DNA from: an uncultured Bacteroidia bacterium
Lineage (GTDB): Bacteria; Bacteroidota; Bacteroidia; Bacteroidales; UBA932
Reading direction: 5' to 3'
Assembly: GCA_902774145.1 (NCBI GenBank)
Contig: CACYHC010000002.1
Location: forward strand, 23,390-87,389
Length of the DNA stretch: 64,000 nucleotides
In this document: positions 44,746 through 56,874 of the stretch, one piece after another
Position numbering within the stretch: the stretch's first letter is position 1
Layout: every line of letters begins with the position of its first letter
Notes under the pieces: generated by a model
What the model was told of the DNA's origin: nothing
Seen by the model: only the letters and a program-made list of their open reading frames with translations
Database searches by the model: none
Translations under genes and position numbers: made by a program

Positions 44746-44880
44746 ATGAAGTACACATGTAATATTTGCGGCTATGTCTATGACGATGCCGAGCAGGGAG
44801 TCCCTTTTGCTGAACTGCCCGAGGATTGGGTTTGTCCGCTCTGCGGCGTCGGCAAGGAAGACTTCACGGCAGAAGAATAG
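44746..44880 (+). CDS. Rubredoxin, short form
   Basis: One-iron electron carrier, only 44 residues. The Fe(Cys)4 site is complete: C5-x2-C8-G and C30-P-x-C33-G, with the family residues Y10, W28 and the DWVCP segment. Typical rubredoxins have 52-54 residues; the loop between the two cysteine pairs is shorter here. It sits 18 bases before pheA, apparently in the same transcript; a link with aromatic synthesis is not established, and a general role in oxygen or peroxide defence of anaerobes is the usual inference. Confidence 0.92.
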
Positions 44881-48487: not shown

Positions 48488-49322
48488 GAAGATACTCATC
48501 GTCGGGCTGGGCCTGATGGGCGGCAGTTATGCGCTGGCGCTCAAGGAGAAAGGCTACCGGGTTGGAGCGGTAACGCGCTCGCCGGAAACGATACGCTATG
48601 CCCTGGAACAGGGGATGATCGACGAGGGAACGACCGCCCCGGAGGCGGCTTTCGTCGGCGCGTACGACCTGGTTGTCTTTGCGCTGTATCCGCACCTGCT
48701 GCTGGAGTGGCTGGAGCAGTATCAGGGAATGTTGCGTCCCGGCGCGCTGCTTACGGATGTGACGGGCGTCAAAAGCAGCATCGTGTACCGCGTACAGCAG
48801 ATGCTTCGCGGCGATGTCGAATTCATCGGCGCGCACCCGATGGCCGGACGCGAACTGAGCGGCGTACGCAGCGCCGATGCGGGCATTTTCCGCGGCGCGA
48901 ACTACATCGTCACCCCTACGGTCGCCAATACGGAAGCGGCGATAACGGCCTGCGAAGACCTCGGGCGTGCGCTCGGCGTTGCACGCATTTCGCGGCTCAG
49001 TCCGGAAAAGCACGACGAGATGATCGGCTTCCTGAGCCAGCTGACGCACTGCATCGCCGTATCGCTGATGACTTGCCGCGATACGGAGCACCTAAGCGCC
49101 TATACCGGCGATTCGTTCCGGGACCTGACGCGCATCGCCCGCATCAACGGCGATATGTGGAGCGAGCTCTTCCTGCTCAACAAGGAGGAACTGCAGCGGC
49201 AGATCGGCTTGTTCATCACGCAGCTGGATGCGTTGAAGACGGCCATCGAAAACGACGATACAGATACATTGAAGGAAATGATGCGCCTCTCTACCGAGCG
49301 GCGGGCATTTTTTGATAAATGA
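48471..49322 (+). CDS. tyrA: Prephenate dehydrogenase
   Basis: NAD(P)-dependent oxidative decarboxylation of prephenate to 4-hydroxyphenylpyruvate for tyrosine; 283 residues. Seen: Rossmann motif ILIVGLGLMGGSYALAL, the DVTGVKSSIV segment, the active-site GAHPMAGRELSG and the SQLTHCIAVSL helix. No fused mutase or ACT domain. The ATG lies inside the aroEK end (17-base overlap), giving translational coupling. DAHP synthase begins 4 bases after the stop. Confidence 0.94.
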   Translation: MLDKNKKILIVGLGLMGGSYALALKEKGYRVGAVTRSPETIRYALEQGMIDEGTTAPEAAFVGAYDLVVFALYPHLLLEWLEQYQGMLRPGALLTDVTGVKSSIVYRVQQMLRGDVEFIGAHPMAGRELSGVRSADAGIFRGANYIVTPTVANTEAAITACEDLGRALGVARISRLSPEKHDEMIGFLSQLTHCIAVSLMTCRDTEHLSAYTGDSFRDLTRIARINGDMWSELFLLNKEELQRQIGLFITQLDALKTAIENDDTDTLKEMMRLSTERRAFFDK

Positions 49323-49326
49323 AGCT

Positions 49327-50358
49327 ATGAATATGGAGTTTAGGCGGGAATTGTTCAGCCCGCAGGAGATTAAGCAGATGTACCCCGTAACGGAAGCGGG
49401 GATGGCGGCCAAACAGGCCAATGACGCGGCGGTACGCGATGTGCTGTCCGGGGCGTCCAGGAAGTTTTTGCTGGTCATCGGCCCCTGTTCGGCGGACCGC
49501 GAAGATGCGGTCGTCGACTATATTTCGCGTCTGCGGCCGCTGCAGGAAAAGGTGGCGGACAAAATCGTCATCGTTCCGCGCATCTACACCAACAAGCCGC
49601 GCACGACGGGCGCGGGTTACAAGGGAATGCTGCACCAGCCCGATCCGCACACGAGTCCGGATCTCTTCAAGGGCCTGATTTCCATCCGTAAACTGCATCT
49701 GCGCGCACTGCTGGAGACGGGCTTCTCCTGCGCCGACGAAATGCTCTACCCGGAAAACCACCTCTTCCTGAGCGACCTGCTCAGCTATGTCGCCGTGGGC
49801 GCGCGGAGCGTCGAAAACCAGCAACACCGGCTCGTCGCCAGCGGCCTGGACATTCCCGTCGGGATGAAAAACCCTACCGGCGGCGACCTTACCGTGATGA
49901 TGAACTCGATCAGTGCGGCGCAGCACCCGCACAATTTCATTTACCGGAACTGGGACGTGCAGAGCGCCGGCAATCCCTTCGCGCACGCCATCCTGCGGGG
50001 CTATGTGGACAATCACGGCACCTCGCACCCCAACTATCATTACGAGGACCTGAAGCACCTGGCTGAGTTGTATGAGATGCACGATTTCGCCAATCCGGCG
50101 GTGCTGGTGGACTGCAATCATTCCAACTCCGGCAAGCAGTTCATGGAGCAGGGAAGAATTGCCAAGGAAGTGTTGCACAGTATGCGGCACTGCAATACGG
50201 TCGGGGCGCTGGTCAAGGGCCTGATGATCGAGTCCTATCTGGAGGACGGCTGCCAGAAGGCGGGGGAGAATGTCTATGGCAAATCCATTACCGACCCTTG
50301 CCTTGGCTGGGAGAAAACAGAACGTTTGGTCCTTGAACTGGCGGAACTTTTGCGATAA
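49327..50358 (+). CDS. 3-deoxy-7-phosphoheptulonate synthase (class I)
   Basis: First step of the shikimate pathway, condensing PEP and erythrose-4-phosphate; 343 residues, AroF/AroG/AroH type. Seen: VIGPCSADREDAVVDY, YTNKPRTTGAGYKG, GMKNPTGGDLTVM and DCNHSNSGKQFM with metal-binding Cys, His, Glu and Asp residues. No chorismate-mutase domain is attached. Which aromatic amino acid inhibits it cannot be told. It ends the aroC-aroEK-tyrA-aroF-type run, so the first and last steps of the pathway are co-encoded. Confidence 0.95.
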   Translation: MNMEFRRELFSPQEIKQMYPVTEAGMAAKQANDAAVRDVLSGASRKFLLVIGPCSADREDAVVDYISRLRPLQEKVADKIVIVPRIYTNKPRTTGAGYKGMLHQPDPHTSPDLFKGLISIRKLHLRALLETGFSCADEMLYPENHLFLSDLLSYVAVGARSVENQQHRLVASGLDIPVGMKNPTGGDLTVMMNSISAAQHPHNFIYRNWDVQSAGNPFAHAILRGYVDNHGTSHPNYHYEDLKHLAELYEMHDFANPAVLVDCNHSNSGKQFMEQGRIAKEVLHSMRHCNTVGALVKGLMIESYLEDGCQKAGENVYGKSITDPCLGWEKTERLVLELAELLR

Positions 50359-53140: not shown

Positions 53141-54024
53141 AACCAGCGGTTCAGCGGAAACTCATAGCGCAGTCCTGCGCTGAGCATCATAAAGGGGTAA
53201 TCCCGGATTCCCCAGGCAAAGACGGCGAAGGGCGTGAAACGCCCAGCATGAAAGTCCAGCCGGCCACGGACAGTGACCGGCTGGTCGCCGTCTTTCTCCC
53301 AGCCGAAATAGCCCGCCAGCTGGGTTTCCAGGCGGAAAACTTTTGTATCCAGCATGGCGGAAACGCCGGCCTGCCAGGCGTCGTTCTGCCGGCCGTTGTC
53401 GGTTTGCCAGCAGAGGAAGCCCCCGCTGGCTGCGCCGCGCAGTTCTTTGCAGAATCCGTTGAAATACAAAGAATTGGCGATGGTGACATCAAAGAAATAA
53501 CCCGGTGCGTCATAGTAGCGTGCTTCGGCAAAGTGATTGCCGGAAGCCGTCTTCAGGACGGCCCGCACCAGGATGTCCGGCACCCAGCCCCGGGCTTTCA
53601 GGACATAGAGATCCGCGGAAATATAGAGGTCGCCGGAGTCGTGTCCCTTCCCCCCGTCCTTGTAGGCCTCGCCCAGCCGCCGCAGGGCGGCGGTTTCTGC
53701 ATCATAGTTCCACCATTCCTGGATGGGCATCCACAGGCTCAGGGCGGCCCGGTCCGTCCAGAGCGGAATACGCAGGTGGAAGGAGGGACCGCCCGTAAAG
53801 TCCAGGCGCCGGTCCTGGGGGAGGAAAAAGTCCCCGGAGAGCTCCACCCGGAGGTTTTTGTCCAGGCGTGCTTCCGGGATGACCGGGACGGGAAAAGCGT
53901 TGGGCCCGAAGTAGGCCGGGGCGATTTTGCTCGGAACGGATAGGTCCGAGGGGACGATGGGCGTCTGCGCCCCGGCCCGCGTGCAGGCCAGCAAAAAAAG
54001 GAGCGTGAGGACCTTATTGTGCAT
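53137..54024 (-). CDS. Exported beta-barrel-like envelope protein, unknown function
   Basis: Protein of 295 residues with a signal peptide ending near TRAGAQ. The C-terminal half has alternating Tyr/Phe/Trp strands (FFDVTIANSLYFNGFCKELR, LDTKVFRLETQLAGYFGWE) and a final aromatic residue (RYEFPLNRWF), the usual C-terminal barrel signal. I do not recognise a named family. Its start overlaps the end of the trpB-type gene by 11 bases, so it is probably on the same attenuated transcript, which is an unexplained pairing. Confidence 0.68.
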   Translation of the reverse strand: MHNKVLTLLFLLACTRAGAQTPIVPSDLSVPSKIAPAYFGPNAFPVPVIPEARLDKNLRVELSGDFFLPQDRRLDFTGGPSFHLRIPLWTDRAALSLWMPIQEWWNYDAETAALRRLGEAYKDGGKGHDSGDLYISADLYVLKARGWVPDILVRAVLKTASGNHFAEARYYDAPGYFFDVTIANSLYFNGFCKELRGAASGGFLCWQTDNGRQNDAWQAGVSAMLDTKVFRLETQLAGYFGWEKDGDQPVTVRGRLDFHAGRFTPFAVFAWGIRDYPFMMLSAGLRYEFPLNRWF

Positions 54025-55384
54025 TGTTCAGGTCATCGGCGCTCTTCATAAAGGAGGCAATCTCTTCATCGGAGAGGTGGTAGTTCTGCATCTCGCCGGA
54101 GAAATAGCTGTCATAGGCCGCCATATCCACGAAGGCGTGTCCGGAAAGGTTGAAGAGGATGGTCTTCTGCTCGCCGCTTTCCTTGCATTTGAGGGCCTCG
54201 TTGACGGTGGCCGCAATCGCGTGGCAGCTTTCCGGTGCGGGAATGATGCCCTCGGTCTGCGCAAAGAGCACGCCCGCCTTGAAGGAATCGAGCTGTTCGA
54301 TATCGACGGCTTCCATATAGCCGTCCTTCATCAGCTGGCTAAGGATGACGCCGGCACCGTGGTAGCGCAGGCCGCCTGCGTGGATGGAGGCGGGTTTGAA
54401 GGCGTGTCCGAGCGTGTACATCGGCAGGAGAGGGGTCATACCGGCCTCGTCGCCGAAGTCATATTCGAATTTGCCGCGGGTGAGTTTCGGGCAGGAGAAA
54501 GGCTCCGCCGCGATGAAGCGGGTCTTTTTGCCTTCCAGGATGTTGTGGCGCATAAAGGGGAATGCCAGGCCGGAGAAGTTCGAACCGCCGCCGAAGCAGG
54601 CAATCACGATATCCGGGTATTCGCCCGCGAGTTCCATCTGCTTTTCCGCCTCCAGGCCGATAACGGTCTGGTGCAGGCAGACGTGGTTCAGGACGCTGCC
54701 CAGTGCGTATTTGCAGTTGGGCGTGCTCAGGGCCAGTTCGATGGCCTCGGAAATCGCGCAGCCCAGGGACCCCCGGTCGTTGGGGTTGCGGGTGAGAATA
54801 TCCTTGCCGGCGCGGGTGGACATCGACGGGGAAGGGGTGACCGCGGCGCCGAACGCCTGCATGATGGAGCGGCGGTAGGGTTTCTGCTCGTAGCTGACCT
54901 TGACCATATAGACCGCGCAGTCGATGCCGAACTTCTTGGTGGCGTAGCTCAGCGCACCGCCCCACTGGCCGGCGCCCGTCTCGGTGGTGAGGTTGGTGAC
55001 GCCCTGCTGTTTGGCGTAGTAAGCCTGGGCGATGGCGGAGTTGAGTTTGTGCGATCCGGCGGGGCTCACGCTCTCGTTCTTGAAATAGATGTGGGCCGGG
55101 GTGCCGAGCGCCTTTTCCAGCTCATAGGCGCGCACGAGCGGGGTGCAGCGGTAGGCGGCGTACTGCTCGCGCACTTCTTCCGGGATGGGAATCCATACAT
55201 CCGTCTGGTTGAGTTCCTGGTCGGCGCAGGCCTTGCAGAAGATGGGGTAGAGGTCTTCCGCCTTGAGGGGCTGGCGGGTTGCGGGGTGCAGGAAGGGGAG
55301 GGGCTTGTTGGGCATCACCGCCTGGATGTTGAAGAAGTGGGTCGGGATTTCCGACTCCGGCAGCATGAATTTTTTCTGTCTCAT
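54014..55384 (-). CDS. Tryptophan synthase beta chain-like PLP enzyme (TrpB2 type)
   Basis: PLP enzyme that joins indole (or an indole source) with serine to give tryptophan; 456 residues. The length, the IPIPEEVREQYAAYRCTPL start and the PAGSHKLN motif with PLP lysine K113 match the TrpB2 subgroup, which is longer than classical TrpB (about 395). Also seen: TETGAGQWG, the CFGGGSNFSG phosphate loop and ESCHAIAA. There is no trpA beside it. The upstream leader codes for tandem Trp codons with a terminator, so expression should rise when tryptophan is scarce; this supports a tryptophan role over a generic PLP function. Confidence 0.9.
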   Translation of the reverse strand: MRQKKFMLPESEIPTHFFNIQAVMPNKPLPFLHPATRQPLKAEDLYPIFCKACADQELNQTDVWIPIPEEVREQYAAYRCTPLVRAYELEKALGTPAHIYFKNESVSPAGSHKLNSAIAQAYYAKQQGVTNLTTETGAGQWGGALSYATKKFGIDCAVYMVKVSYEQKPYRRSIMQAFGAAVTPSPSMSTRAGKDILTRNPNDRGSLGCAISEAIELALSTPNCKYALGSVLNHVCLHQTVIGLEAEKQMELAGEYPDIVIACFGGGSNFSGLAFPFMRHNILEGKKTRFIAAEPFSCPKLTRGKFEYDFGDEAGMTPLLPMYTLGHAFKPASIHAGGLRYHGAGVILSQLMKDGYMEAVDIEQLDSFKAGVLFAQTEGIIPAPESCHAIAATVNEALKCKESGEQKTILFNLSGHAFVDMAAYDSYFSGEMQNYHLSDEEIASFMKSADDLNNAQ

Positions 55385-55419
55385 AACGATAATATGTTGA
55401 AATATTTATTTTCCATTAA

Positions 55420-55453
55420 CAAAAAAGACCATCCGGGGCTCCTCCGGACAGTC
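55420..55453 (-). terminator. Attenuator terminator before the TrpB2-type gene
   Basis: Minus-strand stem GACTGTCCGG / CCGGATGGTC with a seven-base loop (ten pairs including two G-T), followed by TTTTTT. It lies 36 bases before the structural gene, after the leader peptide, so it would stop transcription before the gene is reached unless an antiterminator forms. Confidence 0.82.
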
Positions 55454-55484
55454 TCGCAAAGTATGCTTACACGCGCGCTTACGC

Positions 55485-55547
55485 CTAACGGGCCTGACCG
55501 GAAAATTCGTTCAGGCGCCACCAGAAGAAAGTGTTCTTGCGTGTCAT
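55485..55547 (-). CDS. trpL: Trp attenuation leader peptide
   Basis: 20-codon leader with F7, F8, W9 and W10 encoded in a row, stopping with TAG. It is too short for ordinary gene finders. RNA segments: segment 1, GCCTGA, follows the two Trp codons directly (55516-55511); segment 2, CCGGTCAGGC, lies at the end of the leader (55501-55492); segment 2 pairs either with segment 1 (GCCTGA/TCAGGC) or with the 5' arm of the terminator (eight of ten pairs). Ribosome stalling at W9-W10 would mask segment 1 and favour the antiterminator; a ribosome at the stop codon would mask segment 2 and allow termination. Only 6 bases separate the -7 box from this ATG. Structure was judged by eye, not folded. Confidence 0.82.
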   Translation of the reverse strand: MTRKNTFFWWRLNEFSGQAR

Positions 55548-55553
55548 CGGCAG

Positions 55554-55584
55554 CAAATGTAAGCATTATTTTTTATTGTGCAAA
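55554..55584 (-). promoter_or_regulatory. Promoter of the attenuated trp unit
   Basis: Minus-strand TTTG (55584-55581), 19-base spacer, TACATTTG (55561-55554). The -33 box overlaps the end of metK region. The leader-peptide ATG begins 6 bases after the -7 box. Confidence 0.78.
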
Positions 55585-56793
55585 CAAATCGCGGATTTTT
55601 TGCACGGCATCGGTTTTTTCCCAGCCGAAGAACTGCAGTCCGTCCTTGACATAGGGTTCTTGTCCCATATGGCCGTAGGTGGCCGTCGGTTCGAAAATCG
55701 GGGATTTCAACCCGAATTGCTTAATAATCGCGGCGGGACGCAGGTCGAAAGCCCCGTGGATGCGGCGGGCGATTTCTCCGTCGGAAACGCCCTGCAGTTT
55801 CGAGGTGCCGTAGGTATCGACGAATACGCTGACGGGCTCGGCGACGCCGATGGCATAGGCGAGCTGCACCAGGCATTCGTCGGCGATGCCGGCCGCTACG
55901 AGGTTCTTGGCGAGGTAGCGGGCCGCATAGGCGGCGCTGCGGTCCACTTTCGACGGGTCTTTTCCCGAGAAGGCGCCGCCGCCGTGGGCGCCCTTTCCTC
56001 CGTAGGTATCGACGATGATTTTGCGCCCGGTGAGGCCCGTATCGCCGGCGGGACCGCCGATGACGAATTTTCCCGTCGGGTTGACCAGCAGTTTGAATGT
56101 GCCGTCGAAAAGGGCTGCGGTCTGTTCCGGCAGGCTTGCGATGAGTCTCGGAAGTACAATCTCGCGTACGTCGGCTTCGATTTTCGCGTGCATTTCGGCT
56201 TCGCTGGCGAATTCGTCGTGCTGCGTGCTCAGGACGATGGTGTGGATGCGCAGGGGCTGGCGCTTCTCGTTGTATTCGATGGTGAACTGGGCCTTGGCGT
56301 CCGGGCGCAGGTAGGACATCGGCTGCGGCGTTTCCCTCCGGATATCGGCGAGCAGGCGGAGCAGCCTGTGGGACAGAGAGAGCGCAAGTGGCATATATTC
56401 CGCGGTTTCCCGGCAGGCATAGCCGAACATCATTCCCTGGTCGCCGGCGCCCTGTTCTTCGGGACTTTCGCGCACGACACCCTGGTTGATGTCGGGACTC
56501 TGTTCGTGAATCGTGGAGATGATGCCGCAGGAACTGGCGTCAAAGCCGTATTCCGCCTTGTTGTAGCCAATCTTCTCGATGACGCGGCGGGCGGTTTCCT
56601 GGATGTCCACCCAGACCTCGGAGCGGACTTCGCCGCCCACGATGACCAGGCCCGAGGTGCAGAAAGTTTCACAAGCAACTTTGGCCTCCGGGTCCTTGCG
56701 GAGGAATTCGTCGAGAATGGCGTCTGAAATCTGGTCGGCAACCTTGTCAGGATGCCCTTCGGAGACACTCTCCGATGTGAAGAGATAGTTCAT
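55573..56793 (-). CDS. metK: S-adenosylmethionine synthase
   Basis: Makes S-adenosylmethionine from methionine and ATP; 406 residues, cytosolic tetramer. Seen: [32 protein letters not shown], and [20 protein letters not shown] with the metal- and ATP-binding residues. The ATG at 56793 matches the family start; in-frame upstream codons belong to the riboswitch. A SAM-II aptamer ends directly at this start codon, so translation is probably shut off by the product. The minus-strand uxuA terminator lies upstream, separating it from that unit. Confidence 0.96.
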
Positions 56794-56845
56794 TTTAGCA
56801 TTTTTTGGTTTACCGGGGTTGCAAGCAGTCAAATCTGTCCCCGTG
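56791..56845 (-). ncRNA. SAM-II riboswitch upstream of metK
   Basis: On the minus strand the P1 stem is CGGGG (56843-56839) with CCCCG (56818-56814), enclosing GATTTGACTGCTTGCAA, which holds the SAM-II conserved GATTT and TTGCAA. Downstream an A-rich stretch leads to GCTAAA directly before the metK ATG, the position of the conserved pseudoknot strand. The layout agrees base for base in the key parts with the known SAM-II consensus. SAM binding would bury the start codon. A near -7 box (TATCTTCG, 56871-56864) lies just upstream. No fold was computed. Confidence 0.82.
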
Positions 56846-56874
56846 GGTTTGTTAATTGTGGCGCGAAGATAGGG

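Follow-up and report, generated by a model that had tools for sequence, protein, structure and literature searches.

The question raised by this locus is whether the leader of trpB2, a gene for a stand-alone TrpB-like enzyme, is a tryptophan attenuator, and what such a device would control. The classical trp attenuator of E. coli has consecutive Trp codons in its leader, and a 2:3 antiterminator that competes with a 3:4 terminator. Analysis of the window, by which we mean the whole stretch of 64,000 nucleotides, leads us to conclude that trpB2 is very probably controlled by a ribosome-mediated transcription attenuator that would sense charged tRNA-Trp.

Elements of the trpB2 leader

The elements are listed in the direction of transcription, each with the evidence from which it was placed.

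55581–55584, minus strand: −33 box TTTG, from the sequence; within the final codons of metK, with a spacer of 19 nt
55554–55561, minus strand: −7 box TACATTTG, from the sequence; predicted transcription start about 5 nt further on
55485–55547, minus strand: leader peptide MTRKNTFFWWRLNEFSGQAR (20 codons, then stop), from the sequence and the WW ORFs before related trpB2 genes; predicted 5′ UTR about 2 nt
55539–55544, minus strand: 5′ strand of the outer stem, ACACGC (codons 2–3), from the fold and a swap test (0/20,000 over 31 dissimilar leaders)
55518–55523, minus strand: putative regulatory Trp-Trp codons (9–10), from the sequence and their retention in relatives
55511–55516, minus strand: segment 1, GCCTGA, partner of segment 2 in the 1:2 hairpin, from the fold and the swap test (0/20,000), less strongly from a hand alignment
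55493–55505, minus strand: segment 2, TTTTCCGGTCAGG, partner of segment 1 or segment 3, from the swap test and the hand alignment
55470–55475, minus strand: 3′ strand of the outer stem, GCGTGT, from the fold and the same swap test as the 5′ strand
55444–55455, minus strand: segment 3, the terminator 5′ arm GAGACTGTCCGG, which with the adjoining bases CTGTCCGGAGGA is the antiterminator partner of segment 2, from the fold, the swap test and the hand alignment
55421–55436, minus strand: segment 4, the terminator 3′ arm CCGGATGGTCTT with the U tract, from the fold and a terminator script
54014–55384, minus strand: trpB2, a TrpB-like PLP enzyme of 456 amino acids, from matches to NF009057, TIGR01415 and PF00291

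The promoter TTTG-N19-TACATTTG, the six bases (CTGCCG) between the −7 box and the leader ATG at 55547, and the 20-codon ORF with FFWW at codons 7–10 are all present as originally predicted. The rest of the predicted attenuator anatomy, comprising the segments, the terminator and a TrpB2-type gene, is likewise supported by the sequence, the fold and the profile scores. On the 3′ side of the Trp codons lie GCCTGA and TTTTCCGGTCAGGC, followed after about 36 nt of spacer by a strong hairpin (55455–55425, minus strand) with a T tract extending to 55421. The terminator had been described as ten pairs followed by six T; the hairpin and the T6 (55426–55421) are there, but the fold gives it 12 pairs. 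Folding of 55417–55546 gave −51.2 kcal/mol, compared with −39.3 (sd 3.4) for shuffled sequences (z = −3.5), and one of 200 shuffles was as good. The fold thus bears out the proposed leader structure, with the outer stem found in addition.

A short ORF with consecutive Trp codons therefore precedes the regulated gene, and the 2:3 antiterminator and 3:4 terminator are mutually exclusive, as judged from the sequence. The leader stop lies 33 nt past the last Trp codon (9–42 nt after WW across the 70 leaders discussed below), a placement that, taken from positions only, would let a ribosome finishing the peptide reach segment 2. The leader peptide has no match to a Pfam family at E ≤ 0.001. By eye we also noted a 9-base inverted repeat, ATGCTTACA and TGTAAGCAT (55566–55558 and 55471–55463, minus strand), with one copy in the promoter and the other in the pre-terminator spacer; it may be due to chance.

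The ATG of trpB2 (55384) lies 36 nt past the T tract. The protein scores 692 bits with NF009057 (cut-off 366) and 590 bits with TIGR01415 (cut-off 518.85), placing it in the TrpB2 family. The upstream gene, metK, is on the same strand with its coding end at 55573, and is headed by a SAM-II riboswitch (window 56785–56848, minus strand), as is also found at the related locus L003 (2377–2443). Read-through from metK could feed the trpB2 leader.

From this layout we infer the start of transcription, translation of the leader, the response to tryptophan and the salvage of indole. Transcription would start some 2 nt ahead of the leader's AUG, and a ribosome would load at the 5′ end or very close to it. 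When tryptophan is ample the ribosome would pass WW to the stop codon and mask segment 2, so that the 3:4 hairpin would terminate transcription before trpB2. If no ribosome loads, the outer stem and the 1:2 hairpin would form and 3:4 would again terminate. When charged tRNA-Trp is short, a ribosome stalled on WW would cover segment 1, leaving segment 2 to pair with segment 3; this would block the terminator and allow trpB2 to be transcribed. TrpB2 would then join external indole and serine to make tryptophan. The original prediction named tryptophan shortage as the inducing signal, and the WW codons and mutually exclusive pairings are consistent with that.

Tryptophan codons and pairing in related leaders

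Upstream regions were collected from 80 TrpB2 loci of named genomes, 29 further loci and some others. L028 and L056, among the 80, had no gene start and were left out; the gene start could be placed in 123 regions, and once the window was added and nine duplicates were removed, 115 distinct regions were left. Among 40 short regions, 32 had no located gene start in the main set, and all 40 were read by orientation in the comparison within the genus and family. We defined a WW leader as a short ATG-started ORF of 7–45 amino acids containing WW.

Such an ORF is present in 70 of the 115 regions, with WWW in 28 of those 70. Dinucleotide shuffling gave a mean of 0.9 (maximum 5 in 20 rounds), the reverse complement gave 3 and the reversed sequence 2, and these controls rule out a chance ORF. 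WW leaders precede 59 of 68 genes encoding a TrpB2 of at least 80% identity, and 11 of 47 below that value. It had been proposed that relatives lacking the WW codons would count against the attenuator; WW is kept in most of the set, but part of it is of just this kind, with 45 of 115 having no WW ORF by the ATG rule (9/68 at ≥80% identity and 36/47 below). No WW leader was found in Bacteroides luti (L059), the Prevotellaceae loci L057 and L071, or the Muribaculaceae loci L065 and L082; the Prevotellaceae locus L081 carries one. The 14 other genomes of the same genus with trpB2 divide into three with a WW leader and 11 without, and G149 and G171, of that genus, have none despite a TrpB2 at 85% identity. 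L037 has a GTG-started WWW leader, which falls outside the ATG rule, and in four family genomes (L149, L157, L161 and L162) FFFWR(A/T)WFWQ replaces WW, with a different spacing of the Trp codons.

Many of the 70 leaders share an N-F-WW-R context. The residue at −2 is Asn in 42 and Phe in 10, that at −1 is Phe in 38 and Asn in 14, and Arg follows the Trp run in 57. The prevalent codons are AAC (27/42), TTC (33/38) and CGC (50/57), and pairing may be the reason why the Arg codon is retained. A search of the source genome with the pattern TTTG-ATG-TGGTGG gave 76 matches, compared with 25 for the reversed pattern, and we make no case for the trpB2 leader being unique there.

A terminator better than −9 kcal/mol by the script is found in 62 of the 70 leaders, starting 45–85 nt past WW in 61 of them and 153 nt past it in one. 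The remaining eight have no terminator that passes the script; in L043, L045, L049 and L035, hairpins with weaker T tracts after them can be seen by eye. The script terminators of L005 and L044 are possibly wrong, and the arms assigned by the script may err in some leaders.

Pairing was examined by a swap test on 32 leaders less than 80% alike, in which the 45 nt after WW were set against the terminator 5′ arm plus loop. The leaders' own 2:3 duplexes averaged −14.4 kcal/mol and permuted ones −11.5 kcal/mol (sd 0.49), with none of 20,000 permutations as good. Only seven of the 32 leaders had their own partner ranked first in its row, and in five (L041, L044, L050, L096 and L141) the own duplex was weaker than the row mean. 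Reversing the segment, as a control for composition, gave −11.7 against −10.9 (781/20,000), so a small part of the 2:3 effect is due to composition. The 1:2 hairpin, the 3:4 terminator arms and the outer stem (31 leaders) each gave 0 of 20,000 permutations.

Twelve leaders of the subtype seen in the window were aligned by hand. In this alignment the 2:3 helix is paired in 120 of 144 cells, a value reached by 0 of 1000 shuffles, and five of its 12 pairs have changed on both sides. The 1:2 helix is weaker, with 63 of 84 cells paired and 46 of 1000 shuffles reaching this; 12 of the 84 cells have no partner base, leaving 63 of 72 usable cells paired. Since related sequences are not independent, these pairing counts are not probabilities. 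Covariation had been suggested as a check on all three helices: it is found for 2:3 by both methods and for 3:4 in the swap test, while for 1:2 the swap test is positive and the hand alignment less so. Comparison of these leaders, which share ancestry, indicates that the alternative 2:3 antiterminator pairing co-evolves, and the 70-leader set makes this clear.

These data bear on three other ways of reading the locus. A plain intrinsic terminator separating metK from trpB2, accompanied by a chance short ORF and with no attenuation, would be in keeping with the frequency of intergenic terminators and with the 45 related genes that have no WW ORF. Yet WW is found in 70 of 115 regions where 0.9 would arise by chance, the 2:3 pairing co-evolves, and a promoter lies between the coding end of metK and the terminator. 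We have rejected a plain metK terminator on these grounds, and give it almost no weight. The leader might instead be an RNA switch that binds tryptophan, indole or a protein, the peptide being untranslated and TGGTGG an RNA motif. It is indeed structured, its outer stem and 1:2 hairpin are supported by the swap test, and the N-F-W-W-R context recurs in many leaders. However, TGGTGG is in frame with an open ATG in 107 cases, compared with 26 for the other two frames combined, the 70 peptides vary widely apart from WW(W) and the Arg that follows, and the stop codon falls 9–42 nt past WW, as an attenuator requires; a switch of this kind is very improbable. The original prediction also proposed dual control, in which the two Phe codons would add a second, phenylalanine signal. 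FFWW does occur in the window leader and in L003, L008, L044, L045, L047, L050, L055 and L105. But FF precedes WW in only 9 of 70 leaders, the ground on which we have rejected the second signal, and at −2 Asn (42/70) is commoner than Phe (10). Phenylalanine is neither a substrate nor a product of TrpB2, and we know of no link between them. A contribution from phenylalanine is thus highly unlikely, and we retain an attenuator that would respond to tryptophan.

Predicted initiation on the leader peptide

In the available part of a study of Flavobacterium psychrophilum the TAnnTTTG box is placed at −12 to −5 (PMC9723704); given this position, the six bases from box to ATG lead to a predicted 5′ UTR of about 2 nt. 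The start of the leader peptide is probably near-leaderless. According to excerpts of the published work, about 3.7% of 5′ UTRs in Bacteroides thetaiotaomicron are shorter than 10 nt (PMC7366714), 5.5% of F. psychrophilum mRNAs are leaderless (PMC9723704), and the transcript of the trpLE(G) attenuator of Sinorhizobium meliloti starts with the trpL ATG (PMC7298713).

A box no more than 8 nt from the ATG was found in 15 of 33 trpB2 leaders; among ordinary genes, taken from the window and from related loci, 14 of 104 have one (p = 0.0003 by Fisher's test, a value that ignores kinship and is favored by ties between boxes having been settled to the nearer box for leaders). An earlier and less well matched comparison gave 16/37 against 3/28 (p = 0.006). 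Two of the near leaders, L049 and L103, have their nearest ATG just 2 nt past the box and a second one at 8 nt. Within the window, an ATG follows a −33/−7 match by 4–8 nt at the ORFs at 44746 (plus strand), which we take to be rubredoxin-like, 42802 (plus strand), 23760 (minus strand) and 13855 (minus strand); these are further predicted near-leaderless genes. Given the spacing in ordinary genes and the S. meliloti trpL, the near-leaderless layout is enriched in leaders but is neither rare here nor new. The inference of such a start from the promoter box therefore stands, but the original prediction overstated how odd it is.

The same attenuator might be read mainly on a longer metK transcript, in which case initiation on the peptide would be internal rather than leaderless. 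The coding end of metK is at 55573 on the same strand, no terminator is visible by eye in the 25 nt before the leader ATG, and the metK mRNA bears its own SAM-II riboswitch. However, the end of metK, ahead of the leader, carries a promoter that matches both consensus boxes (4/4 at −33, spacer 19), and other trpB2 leaders likewise have a box 5–8 nt ahead of their ATG. We consider internal initiation unlikely, and take transcription to begin probably at the leader's own promoter.

A joint reading of these observations can be put forward tentatively. In the Bacteroidota, where there is little use of Shine-Dalgarno sequences, Trp attenuators may repeatedly have settled on near-leaderless leaders (−7 box to AUG 5–8 nt, with a predicted 5′ UTR of about 1–4 nt) because loading at the end would be the quickest way to couple ribosome and RNA polymerase before a terminator about 125 nt away. 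In addition, the attenuator may have been redeployed from tryptophan synthesis to indole salvage in lineages that have lost their trp operon. The recurrence of near-leaderless leader ORFs makes early ribosome loading for attenuation testable in organisms where Shine-Dalgarno sequences are little used.

Known attenuators and tryptophan physiology

The E. coli trp attenuator has the same mechanism as that proposed here; it controls de novo synthesis, and the outer stem formed from the first leader codons is an extra feature of the present leader. A Bacteroidetes cis-regulatory motif, Bacteroid-trp (RF01692), has been described (Weinberg et al. 2010, PMC2864571, from the part available), and its Rfam name is Bacteroidete tryptophan peptide leader RNA. 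As such leaders were already catalogued, the suggestion that a Trp attenuator is in itself new to the Bacteroidota was overstated. RF01692 gave no match at gathering in the window, none at E ≤ 10 for 55000–56000 and none in the source genome under stricter filters. The window leader falls below the 49-bit score, and we have rejected membership of RF01692 by score. Among 199 genomes of the family there are 27 matches at E ≤ 0.1, of which four are above the cut-off (G045, G154, G196 and G025); their contigs have a TrpA match or a TrpB-like match at about 31–32% identity to TrpB2, which marks ordinary trp genes. In eight sister genomes (G052, G067, G193, G134, G194, G114, G079 and G081) RF01692 also matches immediately before trpB2, at 33–42 bits against the cut-off of 49.

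Comparison of the consensus with our folds by eye gives a leader before a Trp gene in the Bacteroidota, with Trp codons in the outer-stem region and an inner hairpin. The two share phylum, Trp-codon leader, outer stem flanking the WW codons, inner hairpin and a terminator 5′ arm at the end, but the consensus has WWW and A/U-rich spacing and the window leader serves a lone trpB2. Since the model misses the window leader while the anatomy is alike, we file it by mechanism as of the Bacteroid-trp kind, and not as a scored member of RF01692.

Further comparisons rest on excerpts of the papers concerned. The S. meliloti trpLE(G) attenuator shares the mechanism and the ATG-first transcript, but controls de novo genes where ours would control a probable salvage enzyme (PMC7298713). 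Bacteroid-trp has been discussed for the leader of the F. psychrophilum trp operon, so that Bacteroidota attenuation is in print, though before the trp operon and, in the excerpts, with no mention of trpB2 (PMC6414381). The same holds for leaders before amino-acid biosynthesis operons (PMC9723704). For the Corynebacterium glutamicum ilvBNC attenuator leaderless initiation is discussed, and the first hairpin, which resembles the outer stem here, is said to block initiation; it differs in responding to branched-chain amino acids, in phylum and in structure (PMC11857589). In the best-ranked part of the literature on Bacteroidota, tryptophan and attenuation, with few subscription journals, we found no description of an attenuator before trpB2, which does not prove that none exists. 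The locus is well supported as a Trp attenuator of known kind, whose target gene is less usual and whose leader peptide is probably near-leaderless.

The source genome is a draft of 76 contigs, 96.88% complete. It contains no match to TrpE-type chorismate-binding enzymes (PF00425), IGPS/TrpC (PF00218) or TrpA (PF00290), each of which was matched in 14 of 14 control genomes. Apart from trpB2 itself, the TrpB2 query finds one TrpB-like protein there, and that match is weak (32% identity, E 7e-5). The missing trp operon could reflect an assembly gap, though three separate genes are absent. A search for tryptophanase was also empty in this genome, with a model that matched only 4 of 14 control genomes. 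Since the searches turned up no TrpE, IGPS or TrpA homologue, the lone TrpB2 probably makes tryptophan from external indole and serine, and the controlled step would be indole salvage. The available part of a paper on T. kodakarensis mentions the conversion of indole and serine to tryptophan, and cites a title on indole salvage by TrpB1 and TrpB2 (PMC11085991). The locus would add a stand-alone TrpB2 to the genes known to lie under Trp-leader attenuators in the Bacteroidota, here in a genome apparently unable to make tryptophan de novo, and points to indole cross-feeding among gut microbes as a regulated process. Named relatives of the source bacterium, a member of the Bacteroidales, are mostly from the ruminant gut.

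A match to TrpA is present in 33 of the 199 family genomes, and the TrpB2 query matches, when weak matches are counted, in 140. In 70 of the family genomes, a WW leader was present in 27 of the 54 that lack a TrpA and in 4 of the 16 that have one, an association with TrpA absence that is suggestive at most. A DAHP synthase of the aroFGH type is encoded at window 49312–50358 (plus strand), and it seems that the entry step of the shikimate pathway has been kept while the tryptophan branch was lost.
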